From positions 222,259 through 286,258 of the forward strand of contig MU001672.1 of NCBI GenBank assembly GCA_010093515.1: 64,000 nucleotides of DNA, read 5' to 3'. A program made the position numbers and the translations under genes. Source of the DNA: Lineolata rhizophorae. Its lineage: Eukaryota; Ascomycota; Dothideomycetes; Lineolatales; Lineolataceae. Positions 6,401 to 64,000 of the stretch are shown in pieces. The notes beneath the pieces were generated by a model. That model did not search any database. It worked only from the letters and a program-made list of their open reading frames with translations, and was not told where the DNA came from. The stretch's first letter is position 1, and every line of letters begins with the position of its first letter.

Positions 6401-9400
6401 TGAAAGAATTTTCCAGCCTCCGCGCACAATGATAGAATGGAAAGTATCTCGGGCGCTATCGCTCACGTTGAGAAGACGAAGTGCCCTGAGCGCCTTGAAT
6501 GCACCCACCACGCGCGACACTTCGCCCTCGTTTAATAGTGACGCACCGACGTTAATCCAGAGAGTAATGAGCACAATACCGTCTATAAATCCCCAAGATC
6601 CGCGGAAGTACGCGTTCGGGGTCCAGAAGAAACCGTCCGCAATGACCTTGATTATCGCCTCGACCGTGAATAGGATAGCGAAACCCATGTCAGTGAAGAC
6701 GAACCAATTTTTAACGCTGAATTCATTGGTCGTAAAGTATTCCTTCTGATAGAGAGGCGTTGTTACGCAGGCCAAGATAACCATCGCAACGATTGCCGCA
6801 TACAGAAACGCCGAAAAGGCGTACCACACGGGAACTGACGGCGCTACACCTTCGATGCGGTCACCGCCACGTCCCGGACCCACGATGCGCTGGCAGATCT
6901 TGCGAATGGGGTTATGAGGCTTGAAAATGAACAGCGAGACGTTATAATTCGGGTGTTTGCGGAGGTATTCTCTTTGTTCCAGTTTACGTTTTTCGGTAGC
7001 AGACACAACCTCTTTGGCCATTCGTCGGGGATCTAGGTCTTCGTAGGCGCGCGATATTTGGAGTCGGGAGTAGAATGGATTCGGTTCGGTGTGGCGAAAA
7101 ATTCTCATGAACTTCGTATAGAGAGTCGACATGATTCCAGAGGACACGATGGTCGTTGGAGCAGGTCCCAAAGCCGCGTTCGGATCGACTTCGGGATTTG
7201 GTCGCTCAGGAGACTGATCTCCCTGGTCATCTAGGAAATCGCGAACAACAGCGTCCTTCAGCAACATCTCGGTCGCAGCGGGTCCATAGTCGAGCGGATC
7301 TTTACGGCGCCCGGTTGCCTGACTGAGTTTGAATATTGTCGATAGCGAAAGGTTCCTGTATTTGTCAGTCCGACGATTTAGGAGGCAGAAATTACGACTG
7401 AAGCTTACCCATGAGACGAGCCGCCCATCTCCTTTTGCTGCAAGAACGCCTTAACTTGCTGCAAGCGTTTCTCATCCTCTGAGACATCAAAGTTCTCCTG
7501 GATGACAGCAATGAACATGTTCAAGACAATGACTGGTTTTGCACGTGAGCGTCTCATTTCGACCCTTCGGTGTAGGTCCGAACTTACAGTTTGCCAAAAT
7601 GAACCACATGATGAAGAACGCAGCGCCGATCCAAGCCTGGCCGTAGAATACCTCAATGGTCGTAATGCTGTACATGATTGACGTCCAATCCTCGCTAGAG
7701 AAAATTTGATACATTCCCAAAAAGGAATTATAAATGGTCTTGAACGTGACCGGGAGAGCCTCCTCGCCATCGTCCGGTGGGAGTTCGCCGCGAAATAATT
7801 GCGAGGCGAAGATGGCGGCGAGGAATGTCAGAAGTGCGACGAAGAGAATCAAGTTAAGGATACCGGATACGTTGCCGAGAACTACCATGATCAAGTCTCG
7901 TGTCAGAGGCACCGCCAGGACGACACGGTAGATTCGGATGATTTGAAAGATGGTGAGCCAAGCATACGGCTCTCCCGAGTTGTGAATCGGCGGTATCTGG
8001 ATGATAGTAGTAATGACCGCCAAGAACAGGTCGACAAGGTTCTGTTTGCCTTTGAAAAAGTTTCTCCAGTCGACAGCGATTCTTAACACAATCTCTACAT
8101 CTAACGCAAGGGTTACGGCAGTTTCGGATGCGTCTGTAACAGTTAGCTCGACCGGAAGTCACACTTATCAAGACAGTGCACTGACCGAGGAATTTCATTC
8201 GCCAGTCACTCATCTCAGCACTGCGGAGCGATTGGCACAAAAGACCGTAGCAAATGATTGTTATCCAAATCCAGCGAGTCTTGTTGAACAAGTACTTCAA
8301 CGTGTTCTTCGGCAATTTCTTAGTCTTCTCTTGATCTTCGTCCAAGAGGGTCTCTTTCTTCTCCTCTGCCGTGAACGCGCTTGCCTTGCTTTCATCTCGA
8401 ATGACGTTAAAGGACGAGGTAATGACAGCGATGAGCAGGGAGATAAGCCAGAGACTCATGATGATAATAGCGAGAGCGAAAACTATGCAAATAGTTAGCC
8501 GAATTCAATCACGAAAGGGAAAGGCTCGACAATGACTTACAGAGTGCTCCAGCGAGGTACTCGCTATCCATCAAATAATACATTATTTCGGAAAACGTAT
8601 TCGACGACATGATTACAAATACCTGCTGTAGCGATTGCAGAATGTTATCGTACGAGACGGTGCCATTATACGGGTTATCCCCTTCGATGCAACGCGACTC
8701 TGGCGGGCATAGAAAGCCTTTGGGCGAGGAAGTGCCCGCCGTGATACCGTCTGCTTTCAGCCAAGGCCTATGTTGGCCATCGGCGCCGATATAACCACCG
8801 CAAAACTGGAAGTCATTGACGAAGTCGTCCAAAACACCTTCGGGGTCACGCCAAACGCAGGTACGCCTCAGGCTCGACTTGAATGTCTGCACGCCCACGA
8901 CTGCGAAAAGGAGCCAGAAGAAGCCCAGTAGGAAGGCAACGTTGACAAGCAGCGGCGCAGCCTTCTTTAAGCTTCGCAGGATGACCGTCGTGCCGCTCGT
9001 CATGCTGAGCAGACGCAGGATCCGCAGGCAGCTAAGCATCCTGAAAATGTAGAGATGCTCTCTTGACTGGATGCCGAACACGGAAATCACGAAGCTAACC
9101 CAAAACGAAACCACGGCCACGAAATCAAGTCGATTGAACGAATGCCGAAGAAAGGCGCGATGGGCAAGCCGGACACGCTGCTGCTGGCGAGAACCGCCAG
9201 GCACCTTCTCTAGACCTGGGTGAGATGTAAAAGATCTCAGGATGGATGGCTGGACGTGTTGCTGGGTGGAAGCAGAACGCTTTAGCGAGGCGGCTCTCTG
9301 CGGAGCAAGGAACGTGTTGGCCTTGTCTATGATTGCTTGGCGCAACCCAATTTGGCGGTTGATCGTGCTGTACTCGATTGGATTGACTATAAAGCCGGAC

Positions 9401-57880: not shown

Positions 57881-58765
57881 TGGAATTGGAACGCCAATTA
57901 CAATAGGAGGGTAGCCAGATGACCTTTGGATTTTCCACGCTCGTAAATGGAGCATGGGAACAATTCGAACGAGCCAGCGGCGGGTTTGGGCGTGTGCAGA
58001 AAAGCCACAGACGACTGTCTACACTGCTGCGTACCCTCGTACCTGCGCAGTCATTTCGTCAAGTAGAGGAGTATGGGAGCTAAGAGTGCTGCAAGAGGGA
58101 AAGCTTAACAATAGGTGATGAAGGCGTTTTGGCGATGACTGCTCGCTAGGAACTCGGTAGTTCAATTTAGGCTTGTAGATCCTCCATGTTTGACTGCATT
58201 TGCCCGTGCCCTCCGGCGAGATAAGCGGCCTGCGTACGACGAGCCGTCGTGGAGTTATCATTTCCTAGACACGCTTTGGCAAAATATCCATTCGCGAGAC
58301 ACGTCTTGCGTCCTTCCTTGGAGCCAACGGCAATTTTTAGAGGGAAAGAAGATTTAGTACTGCTAGAATCCGGAGGCCTAGAGCTGAAGTCTTCAGGCAG
58401 GTGAGACAGCGGTTCGGGAACGTTGCCATAATCGTATCGCATTTGGCTGCGACGAAGGGCCCAAAGAACGGCGGTCGAATCCCGCGTTTCCAGCCGTGCC
58501 GGCTTGGCCGAAGGAGATCGCTGATGCTAGTCTCGAATGGCGCAGGATTTGGAGCCGCTCCCTGCAGGGTTCCGTTGCGATCTGATTCAGCAACGGGTTC
58601 CCTATACCTAGGCCGCCTCTGTACCTGAGCACTCTTACCCGAGCACCGGGACCTGGGTAAAGTGACCTGGGTAGCCGTCGTATCTGAGTAATACTACTAT
58701 GAGGAAGTGAGCACTCCGAGCACCGGGACCCGGGTAAAGTGACCTGGGTAGCCGTCGTACCTGAG
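57881..58765. other. Spacer between the RING gene and the left inverted repeat
   Basis: A minus-strand frame at 58167-58442 (91 codons, Ser/Pro/Lys-rich) is open from an ATG but has no recognisable domain. A direct repeat of about 47 bp lies at 58637-58764 (listed separately). Nothing else seen. Confidence 0.4.
58637..58764 (+). repeat. Direct repeat, two copies of about 47 bp
   Basis: GAGCACCGGGACCTGGGTAA... at about 58638-58685 recurs as GAGCACCGGGACCCGGGTAA... at about 58718-58764. The copies continue alike through GTGACCTGGGTAGCCGTCGT and differ at only two or three positions. It abuts the outer edge of the left inverted-repeat arm. Confidence 0.8.
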
Positions 58766-59032
58766 GCACCTCTGGTCGGACGATTACCTATTCTGGCTAG
58801 CATAGAATTGCCACCAACTTAATCTGACGGGCTACTAGCCGCAAAGCGGGATTGTGGCTGTCACGCCTGTGGCTGTGCAAAGCCTTCGGGCCGACGTATG
58901 CCCCGCAGCCTTGCGATCGAACTTACTCCCCGTCAACCAGCTCACCTCTTGTAGATTCGCCACCTTACAAGGTCTGTGTCGGTGCGGGTCGGCCGTCCTC
59001 CCTGCTAGCGTAAGTAAGGCGTTCATCCTCTT
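58766..59032 (+). repeat. Left arm of the inverted repeat flanking the NLR gene
   Basis: This arm matches, in inverted orientation, 63566-63830. Shared landmarks include ATTACCTATTCTGGCTAGCA, GCTACTAGCCGCAAAGCGG, TGTGGCTGTGCAAAGCCTTC, CTCACCTCTTGTAGATTCGC and GGTCGGCCGTCCTCCCTGCT. The arms look roughly 80-90% identical by eye, with substitutions and a few small indels. Chance ORFs run through the arm. Confidence 0.88.
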
Positions 59033-59157
59033 GACGGTGCTTAAGTGGCGAATCTTCACTATAACTAGAAGATGCTCAAAGCTTCGCTGTGGCAAATTGG
59101 CAAGCTATGTAGCTGCGTTGATCCCCAGAACGCTCTAAGGCCTAAAGATATGTTAAC

Positions 59158-62100
59158 CTAGACATTGCACATCCACACTCTTCCACTTCCAACACCAACA
59201 CCAATCGTCTTCCCTGACACCGCTGAGCATACTGGTCGATACTCTGAGGGTAGCCACACTAGGTTCTCTGAGCTATATGTTATCCATACACCGTCTGCGC
59301 TCAAAGCTAAGCCTTGATACTGAGGATTCTGGGGTTCTGTATTAGAAGGAAGTGGACTTGGAAGACCTGGTGGAACACAAATCTTGATGTTGCCAATATC
59401 AGTATGCAGGTATGGGGCGGTGATGTCAAATGAGATGCGGCGAAGTGTCTTCCCTATACTAAGTATTTGGAGGCACTCGCCGCTGTTTGCATCCCAGAGC
59501 TTGACTGTGCAGTCGTACGACGCCGATGCGAGCCATGCTGAGTCGTGGGAGAAGGCGACCGAACTGCTATGCCCCTCTAGCGTCTGGAGGCACTCGCCGC
59601 TGTTCGTATCCCAGATCTTGACCGTGCTATCGGTCGACGTCATTGCGAGCCGTGCCGAGTCGTGAGAGAAGGTGACGAAGTGGACCATATCGCTATGCCC
59701 CTCGAGTGTCGACAGGCACTCGCCGCTATTCGTATCCCAGATCTTAACCGTGCTATCGGTCGATGTTGATGCGAGCTGTACTGCGTCGTAGGAGAAGGCG
59801 ATAGATAGGACCGTATAGCTATGCCCTATAAGCGTCTGGAGGCACTCGCCACTGTTCGTATCCCAGAGCTTAACCGTCTTATCCCCTGACGCCGATGCGA
59901 GCCGTGCTGAGTTGTAGGAGAAGGCGACAGAGGAGACCCAATCGCTATGCTCTATAAGCGTCTGGAGGCACTCGCCGCTGTTTATATCCCAGAGCTTAAC
60001 CGTCTTGTCCCCTAACACCGATGTGAGCTGTGCTGAGTTGTAGGAGAAGGCGACGGACTGGACCGAATTGCTATGCCCCTCTAGCGTCTGGAGGCACTCG
60101 CCGCTATTCGTATCCCAGATCTTGACCGTGCTATCAGTCGACATCGATGCGAGCCGTGCCGAGTCGTGGGAGAAGGCGACGAAGTGGACTGTATCGCTAT
60201 GCTGTTTGCGCGTCTGGAGGCACTCGCCGCTGTTCGTATCCCAGAGCTTGACCGTCTTATCGGACGACGCTGATGCAAGCCGCGCTGAGTCGTGGGAGAA
60301 GGCGATAGACTTGGCCCAATGGCTATGCCCTTTGAGCGTATAGAGGCACTCGCCGCTGTTCGCATCCCAGAGCTTGACCGTGTAGTCGGACGACGCCGAT
60401 GCGAGCCGTGCTAAGTTATGGGTAAAGGCGACTGAGTTAACCCAATCGCTATGCCCTTTGAGCGTCTGGAGGCACTCGCCGCTGTTCGCATCCCAGAGCT
60501 TGATCGTCTTGTCGAACGACGCCGATGCGAGCCGTGCTGAGTCATGGGAGAATGCGACAGACATGACCGAATCGCTATGCCCTTCCAGCGTCTGGAGGCA
60601 GGCACTCCATTGATCTCCTATACTCGGCTTTATCGTGATCCACTGTAGCTCTTCGTCCTTGAAATGTTCCCTTATTAGGCTGCCGGTTGGACTGAACAAC
60701 AGCGCGGACGCGTATGCTTGCAGGGGATTGTTCTCTATTGCCCACTTATGCGTCATAATGAATCGACGTGCATCTCGAACTAGCTCAACTAATGCAGCCG
60801 CTTTAGCTCTTCCCTACGCTATGTTAGCACGCACAATACATGAGTAGCCTTGCGGGTTGAAGCGTTACATTACTTAACGTCTCAAGTTTCGCTATTGAGA
60901 CTACTCCTTTCGACATGCTTTTGCACAGGCTTAGAGCCTCAAGCCAGTAAAGGTATTTCTTCCTTACGAATTCGTGAACAGCGCCTCCGTCTTGCAGGGC
61001 AACCGAGAAATCTGCAGAAGCGCTGAGGCTCCAGTCACAGAGGTGATCAATCCAGTAGATACAGGAGTAGCGCAGCGCTGCTAGTGGATTCGAATTTGGC
61101 TGTATGATCTGATCAGCAGGATAGCCCAGCTTACCTAAGCTATACATGTCACGATGCAATGTGGACATGGCTTGGAGGGACCTCGAAAGTATAACGTAGT
61201 GGGCATCTTCTATCCCAGAAGGAAAGATGTCGTGGGATGCCTTAGTGGATAAAAAGTCCTTTGCCGACTGATGCACAAAGTAGATAGTGTCTTTCCGTAG
61301 GGTGAGAAACGAACCGCAGAGACCGATAATCTCCCGTATTGACTTAGGATCGTCAGCCACGTCCTCGAGCTGCTCAACAAGAGTAGGTAACTCTTCTAGT
61401 GTGGTTGGCTGGTATGCAATCGTGGCCAAAGCTAGTATCTGCTTGCAAAGGCTAGCATCGTCTGAGTTGCTTATCTGTTGCATCATCCGTCCGTACAGTG
61501 AGTCAAGGCCAGGCGGAAAGGCGTTCAGTTTCTTTATGACGTTCCGTCTCGGGACTCCGCCGAGGGATTGGCATACCAACGCTACCCAAAGAAAAGTGTC
61601 GTTTGCATTAGAGAATAGATGGTCAAGCACGGTATCTCGTGTTTTGTCGTCGTACGTTTTCAACCCCGCTAGTTGCAACACCTTATGCCGGATGAATACG
61701 GTAACAGCCGAAGAGACAGACTGTGCGTTGAGTTCGAGGCTTAGCTTCACCTTGTGCCGCACCTTGTCTAGCCGTTCCTCGATGTCCTGCCAGTTACGGC
61801 TCGAGACAATCCATTTGACACAAGAGAATGTAGACGACTGTTGCGCGACAAACTCTAGCAGTTTCGGCAAGTCTGTGATGCACTCATCGAGCGCGTCCAC
61901 GACCAAGTACGTGCACTTCAAACTAGGATCCTGCAGGATGCTTGTAAAGATCTCTGTCAAAGCGACCCATGCATTCGCATCCTCAAACAGGGTTTTGCCT
62001 GCGTGATCGTATTTTCTGCGAACGTGCGAGATAAGCGACGGCTGTTGACTGACAAGCAAGTACAACAGCCCTCTCAGCACGGCCACGGCGCTTCTGATGC

Positions 62101-63404
62101 GCGAGTCGGTTGCCTGGCAGAAGAAGTAAGACAGAAGGTCTGTTGCGTCCATCGAGTACTGCAGTTCGTCGATGATCCCACACAGCAGCATTGTCTTGCC
62201 CTTGCCAGGGTTAGCCTTGACCCACAACAACTGGTTCTGCGGGTTATCGCGCCACTGTCGGAAGTCCGCGTTATCGAGAATCCAGCGGTATGCGTCCTTC
62301 AGTAGTCCGCCTTTGGTCTCCTCAATACGCTTCTTGTCGTCGCGAGGGTCTGTAAGATGCAGGTCCTTCAGGCATTTGTTGTCTGCGCTTATCTCGTGCA
62401 TCCTCTCCTGCTGCTTGGTCTGCTCTCGAATGGCTGAGCTGATGCTGTCCAGCTTAGCATTCTGAGACTTGGCCGTCTCAGCAATCGCGCCGAGCTGAGT
62501 CCGGATCGAGAGCGTATTGTACTGCGCCGAGTCCGCCTGCACCGCCGCCTCGGCTGCTTGTATGTCGCTCAGCTCGCCATCCCAGTTATCCAGCTTAATC
62601 AGGTCTCGTGCGAACACCGAAAGCCGTCCGCGGTGGTAGTAGCACACGCTCTTCATCTGGTACAGCAGCAGCTTCGCGTAGAGCTGGGCGACGACCTTCT
62701 CGAGCTCATCACGCAGGCCTGGTGAATGCGCCTCCTTTATATTCTCGTCTAGCAACAGGCTCGAAAGGTTCCAGTACCAGTCCGTCCTCGACACAACGTA
62801 GGCGATGCCTTGCCGGTTGGAGCTCGCCTGGGTGAGTGGGTTCATCAGAATCTTGACCATGCACGTCAGCGCCAGATAGTTGTCTCAGTGGCAGCAGTAC
62901 AAACCTCGAGCGCAAAGCAGACACCGACCCAGGCAACAGCCGCTTCGGGCGACGCCTGGATCGCTTTGTCCACAACGTCTTTCACCGCCATGGCAGCCTG
63001 GATGCCGTCTTCCATCCCCTGCTTCACCTTGGCGTCTTTTTCCGTTCTGCGAAGCCCTTTTGAACGAGCTGCTGCATCTGCATCCGCCGTTTATCTGCGT
63101 CCTGTGCGATCTCGTTCTGCTGCGACGCGAGGTCCGCAGAGTGTGGGGGGTTGGAAGCGTCTGCATCTTGTTGGCTCAGCCGAGCAGACAAGATCTTTTC
63201 GTACTCATCAACGGTGCTTGAATCGCTTGTCTTCGCCTGATCGTATGCTTGATTCCAGAGGCGTGCTGGTAAACCGGGCGGAAACGTGGCAGGATCGGGA
63301 GCGGTCCGTGCGTGTGGGGTAGTGGAGGTAGGCAAGGCCTCAACACGCGGGGATGTTGGCGGATCCTTTTTGCCGAATTTGGCTTTGAGACGTTTGAAAG
63401 GCAT
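59158..63404 (-). pseudogene. NACHT-WD40 NLR (STAND) protein gene, interrupted by one apparent frame break
   Basis: NLR-like signalling NTPase of the fungal NWD class, whose relatives include HET-D/E-type incompatibility proteins. Exons on the minus strand: 63404-62905, 62851-60869, 60813-59158, with introns 53 and 55 bp. The N terminus (MPFKRLKAKFGKK, then a helical region ending in VAWVGVCFALE) fits the NACHT-NTPase N-terminal domain, not a HET domain. The NACHT follows: P-loop ANPGKGKT near residue 384 (usual G replaced by A at its first position), Walker B YLVVDALDE, then a helical region with HQSAKDFL. Exon 3 holds nine 42-residue WD40 repeats and a degenerate end blade. Near 63045-63050 the frame shifts by one base beside an A5 run; one more base there would give about 1379 uninterrupted residues. 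This may be a sequence error, a recent pseudogene or a frameshift site. Everything downstream is intact, so loss must be recent if real. Confidence 0.85.
59470..60594 (-). repeat. Nine tandem WD40 repeats with high internal identity
   Basis: Nine units of 126 bp (the ninth is 9 bp shorter, lacking three residues in the HSDxVxSVAF part) encode WD40 blades of the form QTLEGHSDSVMSVAFSHDS followed by a D-x-T-V-K-L/I-W-D strand and the linker NSGECL. Most positions are invariant. Variation concentrates at a few sites: the residue after HSD, the loop before D-x-T (F, S, S, T, G, G, T, T, Y) and the residue in D-x-T (K, Y, K, S, K, K, S, S, C). This is the pattern of fungal NLR WD repeats that evolve in concert under diversifying selection. 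Confidence 0.92.
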
Positions 63405-63565
63405 AATAATCGTAAGAGGCGGCAAATAGTGGTTGTGGGAGGGATGAACTAGTGGATTTATAGGAAAGGTGGGGGGGCTGACTGGACAGCCCATGTGGCG
63501 AGGTAAGTAAGGCTAAGGTGCATCAAGTAGACTTTAGCAAAGGCGAATTTGCAAGTGACTAAACG
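63405..63565. promoter_or_regulatory. Probable promoter and leader of the NLR gene
   Basis: Only about 160 bp separate the NLR start codon from the right inverted-repeat arm, so the promoter of the gene must lie here or within the arm. An in-frame upstream start at 63494 would add 30 residues; the ATG at 63404 is preferred because MPFKRLKAKF resembles family N termini. Confidence 0.45.
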
Positions 63566-63830
63566 AAGGACGAACCTCTCAATCACGCTAGCAGGGAGGA
63601 CGGCCGACCCGCACCGGCCATAACCTTGTAAAGTGGCGAATCTACAAGAGGTGAGGGGGAGTAAGTTCAATCGCAAGGCTGCGAGGCATATTTCGACCCG
63701 AAGGCTTTGCACAGCCACATGCGTGACAGCCGCTTTGCGGCTAGTAGCCACCCGCCGTCAGATTACGTTACGATTATGTGGCAATTCTGTGCTAGCCAGA
63801 ATAGGTAATCGTCCCGATCAGAGGTACTAA
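63566..63830 (-). repeat. Right arm of the inverted repeat flanking the NLR gene
   Basis: Inverted counterpart of 58766-59032. Read on the minus strand, it follows the same order of shared words from ATTACCTATTCTGGCTAGCA at the outer edge to GGTCGGCCGTCCTCCCTGCT on the inner side. It lacks a short stretch present in the left arm (GTCAACCAG between CTTACTCCCC and CTCACCTC). Confidence 0.88.
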
Positions 63831-64000
63831 CTTGGATGGCGGCCCTGCATGAATCGAGCGAGACCACTTCTCGGCGGACGGCCAGGTACCGATTGCCGTG
63901 GCGACCCTGCATGAAAGGTTCGACCGCGGAAGAAAAATACACGGTTGTCGAGCGTCACAGAGTGTATTCGAGAAAAAGACACCCCATTTTTGCGTGGAGG
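63831..64000. other. Right edge, no gene seen
   Basis: Contains two similar words, GCGGCCCTGCATGAA (about 63840) and GCGACCCTGCATGAA (about 63901), suggesting another short direct repeat outside the inverted-repeat arm. The window ends before any further feature can be judged. Confidence 0.4.

Follow-up and report, generated by a model that had tools for sequence, protein, structure and literature searches.

Introduction

In Dothideomycetes, hAT transposons with a captured histone H3 gene have been described (PMC6710886, as far as the portion of that report used here goes), and in Gaeumannomyces a sesA-NACHT-WD40 NLR lies within a Starship (PMC12134995, likewise in the portion used). If the locus studied here is a transposon-like unit, it would resemble the former, also from this fungal class, in having a host gene between the TIRs of a DNA transposon (PMC6710886), and the latter in having a NACHT-WD40 receptor as the cargo of a transposon (PMC12134995). 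The NWD/HNWD genes of Podospora share with it the combination of NACHT and WD repeat domains, and one of them, a pseudogene, is immediately preceded by the relic of a transposable element, according to the sections of the paper to which we refer (PMC1805685).

The locus lies in a stretch of 64,000 nucleotides (C3:222,259-286,258), which we call the window, and consists of an NLR gene enclosed by long inverted arms. A recurring segment in the inner part of these arms suggests, although it does not prove, an old transposon-like unit carrying immune genes. By what routes the NLR repertoires of fungi expand and reach other chromosomes is, to our knowledge, an open question.

Results

An NLR gene enclosed by inverted arms

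ORFs and Pfam matches together define one minus-strand NACHT_N-NACHT-WD40 gene enclosed by arms in inverted orientation, with its ATG at 63,404 and its TAG stop at 59,158-59,160. The features are as follows.

58768..59029, plus strand: left arm (arm A), on the 3' side of the NLR gene (sequence comparison)
59158..60813, minus strand: WD40 frame, with nine WD40 stretches, a 126-bp tandem repeat and a C-terminal tail (Pfam)
60824..62884, minus strand: NACHT frame, with the rest of NACHT_N and NPHP3_N/NACHT, and a winged helix under its cut-off (ORFs, Pfam)
63024..63404, minus strand: NLR frame 1, with the start of NACHT_N (ORFs, Pfam)
63567..63825, minus strand: right arm (arm B), on the 5' side of the NLR gene (sequence comparison)

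The distance from gene to arm is about 162 bp on the ATG (5') side and about 128 bp on the stop (3') side, in good agreement with the earlier note, in which the gene was placed wholly between the arms with about 125 and 160 bp to spare. Pfam finds NACHT_N, NPHP3_N/NACHT and nine WD40 stretches, that is, a NACHT domain together with the C-terminal repeats of an NLR. In the first exon the reading frame changes near 63,040, through either a lesion or a sequencing error, and a GT-AG stretch of 53 bases (62,904-62,852) resembles an intron. As the frame change between the NACHT and WD40 parts is common to a paralogue on C18 it is probably an intron, with ends that cannot be cleanly placed. The WD40 repeats of 126 bp (59468-60600) are about 80% alike across the array, and this fits the concerted evolution described for Podospora NLRs in the part of that report used here (PMC1805685).

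Besides the three NLR frames, the unit contains two ORFs of at least 150 aa (240 and 189 aa), both antisense to the NLR gene and both with no Pfam match at E 0.1, so that no transposase is seen inside the unit. The earlier note had likewise seen no transposase in the unit. No recombinase is seen among the scanned ORFs either, the only domains found being those of the NLR.

Aligned in inverted orientation, arms A and B are 80.7% identical over 276 columns (E 1.9e-71 in this small comparison), which bears out the claim of arms of about 265 bp in opposite orientation and gives the locus terminal inverted repeats of the kind that bound a non-autonomous TIR DNA transposon. Among inverted pairs of at least 35 nt situated no more than 15 kb apart, the window contains 13; three are pieces of this arm pair (87-97% identity) and the other ten are 36-47 nt long with 70-75% identity. 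A tandem duplication of 63 bp (89%; 58626-58688 and 58708-58765) ends two bases before the left arm. Substitutions between the arms comprise 14 transitions and 8 transversions, with 4 of the 14 transitions in CpA/TpG context, a pattern that does not point to RIP. The RIP indices lean toward RIP at 58,001-59,000 (TpA/ApT 1.21 and second index 0.98; the window as a whole has 0.75 and 1.14, respectively).

The inner end of the arms recurs elsewhere in the genome

The genome searched comprises 30.97 Mb in 48 contigs, and because the DNA search skips common words and parts of the genome read N, all match counts are lower bounds. Arm A has four matches at E 0.001 or better and arm B four at E 10 or better; these are both arms themselves and short pieces on contigs C47, C13 and C31, all of which fall on the inner end of the arm. 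The full arm pair is found once. Thus the genome-wide arm search that the earlier note proposed reveals recurrence of the inner end at three other places, but no second pair. At the centre of the recurring segment is a core, present in each arm.

58986..59008, minus strand: core CTAGCAGGGAGGACGGCCGACCC, arm A copy (sequence comparison)
63588..63610, plus strand: core, arm B copy (sequence comparison)

Written as a 24-place pattern, the 24-base core occurs with no more than one mismatch at six places in the genome, namely the two arms and one place each on C11, C13, C31 and C47; there are four more matches with three mismatches, and the reversed control gives two in all. The copy at C11:1,077,237 scores 50 against a maximum of 31 in 60 shuffles. 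A second site on C11 (1,073,988) scores 30 against a shuffle maximum of 31 in 60, and we regard it as chance. C31 and C11 have one core each, with no partner core on the same contig, and no second copy with both ends was found, the gene side at C13 and C47 soon reading N.

The core sits in non-coding DNA. An LAGRxADP frame is present at several copies; however, third positions of codons show the same degree of conservation as first and second positions, the copies shift frame (judged by eye), and we reject a coding role. The reading of the core as a known RNA is likewise rejected: a scan of 58,500-64,000 gave no Rfam match with an E value of 1 or lower, and the folding z-scores of five core pieces range from -1.75 to +0.80. 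Nor is it the end of a Fot1-like element: at C13 such an element lies on the gene side and ends at L016:7466, leaving 205 bp between it and the core, and the sequence on that side then reads N, and a C16 locus (L042) with a 99% identical transposase piece has no core. The N-terminal transposase piece of this Fot1/pogo-like element (L016:7130-7466 and L042) has 102 genome matches at E 0.01.

Of the 15 NACHT places listed, 14 are on contigs without any core, which argues that the core is not a general NLR signal. None of 14 other NACHT loci has a flanking inverted repeat, although this is a weak control with pieces that reach only about 1.5 kb beyond the match.

Flank similarity stops at the core

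We compared the 15 pairs formed by the six core copies on each side of the core. Outside it the arms A and B form the only similar pair, with a score of 257; p is 0.08 or more for each of the 14 remaining pairs. Inside it, the pairs A-C47 and B-C13 score above all 300 shuffles; A-C31 (p 0.017) and B-C11 (p 0.05) are marginal and are not relied on, and the other 11 pairs have p >0.05. For either of the two inner matches, none of 2000 random genomic pieces, taken from five loci, scores as high. A plain DNA search recovers the A-C47 match (E 2.4e-4); the B-C13 match is weak, and a plain search of C13 finds the core stretch only. Similarity in the flanks comes in islands. The segments concerned are listed below.

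58768..58967, plus strand: outer part of arm A, matches arm B only (genome search, pairwise comparison)
58968..59029, plus strand: proposed terminal inverted repeat, right type, begins CAAGG (C47, C13 and C11 similarity stops near its outer edge)
58985..59155, minus strand: NLR 3' flank, homologous to the DNA behind the C47 WD40 C-terminus (pairwise and random-piece test)
63452..63612, plus strand: NLR 5' flank, homologous to C13:535507-535697 (random-piece test)
63567..63628, minus strand: proposed terminal inverted repeat, left type (similarity to C13, C31)
63629..63825, minus strand: outer part of arm B, matches arm A only (genome search, pairwise comparison)

The homology to C47 in the 3' flank and that to C13 in the 5' flank both stop at the outer edge of the core, and arm A and C47 diverge abruptly after ...ACCTTG. 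The ends of the proposed unit read CAA...GGTCGGCC. For the outer 200 bp of each arm, the readable genome offers no match other than the opposite arm. Flank homologies that end at an inverted element are what a transposon-bounded unit would predict; a plain old duplication would predict the same stop only if the core were the outermost constrained site on both sides.

Between the two arms, the outer parts are identical at 172 of 183 ungapped positions (with 31 further gapped columns), the terminal-repeat part at 39 of 44 and the inner stretch at 12 of 18. Mismatches are not significantly different between the outer and terminal-repeat parts (11/183 and 5/44; p 0.20), and the inner stretch does differ significantly in identity from the arms (p 0.002). 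The longest identical run is 32 bp. Mismatches cluster at 58,972-58,980 and set A and B apart; A is identical to C47 there and B is similar to C31, which makes both end types look older than the present likeness of the arms.

In the window there are six instances of the motif AWTYGCCAC, of which four are in the arms and two in the inner 3' flank of the NLR gene. Its ATTYGCCAC form occurs twice in 57,571 other bases, most of them from core-selected loci, and both occurrences are in the C47 3' flank. This distribution is ill suited to a purely late addition of the outer arms, and the shared motif ties them to the inner flank, whether the outer parts are later additions or belong to a long TIR. 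As a genome-wide signature AGATTYGCCACYT was rejected: it has nine matches against four for the reversed control, three of the nine in the unit, and elsewhere it is near chance.

Insertion traces and transposase genes

The earlier note had proposed looking for a target-site duplication, and no convincing one was found: neither the outer arm ends nor the core edges (58,968/63,628) have a direct repeat of 4-12 bases lying within 3 bases of them, nor is there an 8-bp match of the hAT kind, allowing one mismatch, within 3 bases of either. Of 500 random end pairs, 127 have such a direct repeat of 4-12 bases, so chance alone often yields one. The core edges have TA on both sides; this is a weak sign, as the flanks are inverted copies and TA is self-complementary, so that TA/TA amounts to a single 1-in-16 event. 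A search of the organism's own genome for an empty site found that the joined flanks match only themselves and a dispersed repeat on the right side, the left flank being found at its own place only. This dispersed repeat begins at 63,884 (63884-64000), 59 bp outside the right arm, and pieces of it with 82-100% identity are present on C27 (contig start), C35, C1, C42 (near the contig end) and C37. Immediately beyond the window the contig has a run of about 16.5 kb of N.

No autonomous partner was seen in a search that covered the core pattern in the readable genome, which gave no further core, and the 21 DDE_1 loci, none of which has the core above the shuffle maximum.

Neighbours of the other four cores

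At C47, a WD40 C-terminus that is 53% identical to the C3 NLR over 56 residues ends in a stop codon 229 bp before the core. A Lineolata rhizophorae protein that is probably the product of this gene combines HET, NACHT and WD40 domains and shows 70% identity to the NACHT query across 74% of its length; the C47 receptor is thus probably of HET-NACHT-WD40 type. Some 550 bp outside this core there is a 161-bp inverted pair (L020:6522-6682 and 7147-7307), 99% identical and about 460 bp apart. At C11, VVKAAAGN-type repeats are broken by stops, the last of which is 43 bp before the core. We take these repeats to be receptor-type from their type, tblastn with the C3 NLR having given no match there. 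On this assumption two of the four other cores (C47 and C11) lie just downstream of a receptor-type repeat gene. At C31, tblastn with the C3 NLR gave nothing at E 0.1 in 18 kb. A dispersed repeat of about 155 bp, MITE-like by size and with 39 other genome matches, is situated about 190 bp outside the C31 core (L018:8620-8780); we considered it as kin of the arm ends and rejected it, there being no likeness above chance (B vs C31, p 0.63).

Discussion

We propose that the NLR gene lies as cargo in an old, non-autonomous, transposase-less TIR-bounded mobile unit, a reading to which we give a probability of just under one half. The shared unit would have its limits at about 58,968 and about 63,628 and be bounded by terminal repeats of about 60 bp that contain the conserved core; its left and right ends would differ in subterminal sequence, each type recurring at another locus. 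A transposase acting in trans may once have recognised the core, and the receptor gene would have moved or been duplicated together with the ends and flanks. The outer 200 bp could then have arisen by later inverted copying of one flank to the other side or, alternatively, represent the faster-changing outer part of a long TIR. The unit would later have become immobile, and it does look dead, as no autonomous partner is seen, the ends have diverged and a Fot1-like element lies beside the C13 core. Of the mobile or formerly mobile unit suggested in the earlier note, what stands is an end segment at four other places, with a receptor-type gene at two of them and homology that stops at the ends; what does not stand is the placing of the ends, which would be inside the arms at the core, and no clear target-site duplication, second full copy or empty site accompanies them.

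A serious rival is ordinary NLR paralogy with conserved flanks, which we consider a real possibility though one that falls clearly short of even odds. Here C3, C47 and perhaps C13 would derive from old duplications, the core and the GATTCGCCAC motifs would be regulatory sites conserved on both the 5' and the 3' side of the gene, and the arms would reflect a single local event in which one flank was duplicated in inverted orientation. In favour of this, the receptors of C3 and C47 look related, in the last 56 residues as in the NACHT region of the probable C47 protein, and island-like similarity in the flanks is to be expected of constrained sites. Against this, the homology stops at an inverted core on both sides, C31 has the core in 18 kb where no NLR match is found, and nearly all of the listed NACHT places are on contigs that lack it. 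It is also conceivable, although in our view improbable, that a single element has the entire arm of about 260 bp as its TIR, the other four cores being decayed relatives that have kept mainly a recognition core. The lack of a significant difference in mismatches between the outer and terminal-repeat parts agrees with this, as does the motif shared between the arms and the inner 3' flank; however, all four other copies lose similarity to the arm near the same point, and the end types at 58,972-58,980 look older than the likeness of the arms.

The earlier note also raised inversion by recombination between the arms, such that the gene is flipped as a switch. The arrangement itself is what such a switch would have, but the arms are only 81% identical with a longest identical run of 32 bp, no recombinase is seen in the unit, and as the 5' flank of the gene lies inside the arms a flip would hardly alter expression; we find this reading unsupported and very unlikely. 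Chance or an assembly artefact we hold to be just as implausible: the only feature in its favour is the N stretch directly after the window, and chance is excluded by the arm match (E ~1e-71) and the recurrence of the core.

If the TIR-bounded unit with NLR cargo is the correct reading, the sequences at hand would allow a wider one, which we find doubtful, that a family of such small units has regularly carried varied receptors (NACHT_N-NACHT-WD40 at C3, probably HET-NACHT-WD40 at C47 and perhaps VVKAAAGN repeats at C11) and, by transposing them along with their 5' and 3' flanks, has contributed to the spread and reshuffling of the NLR repertoire. A compact unit with a receptor as its sole cargo would be a direct route for NLR spread, and the core sequence makes possible a test by a single search in related Dothideomycetes.

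In the literature searched, which was largely without subscription journals and seen in part, we found no fungal NLR enclosed by TIRs. The NWD/HNWD genes of Podospora differ from the present locus in that no inverted-repeat-bounded unit is described for them in the sections referred to, the word 'inverted' being absent from the main text (PMC1805685). Fot1/pogo elements are TIR elements abundant in the same genome (21 DDE_1 matches); 11 of these 21 loci have long inverted ends, most of which start with TAACG, TAACC or TTAAG within two bases, and the ends of the NLR unit are unlike those of the DDE_1 elements at these 11 loci with readable ends. The hAT-histone H3 elements, in the portion of the report used, have a 20-bp TIR, an 8-bp TSD, a hAT domain and hundreds of copies (PMC6710886), whereas the NLR unit, with a TIR of about 60 or 260 bp, is known from one two-ended copy and shows neither a clear TSD nor a transposase. 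Starships, finally, are giant, up to about 700 kb according to the part of that paper used here (PMC12134995), and the NLR unit, which measures 4.7-5.1 kb, has long inverted ends and contains no recognisable gene besides the NLR, is set apart from them by both its size and its build.
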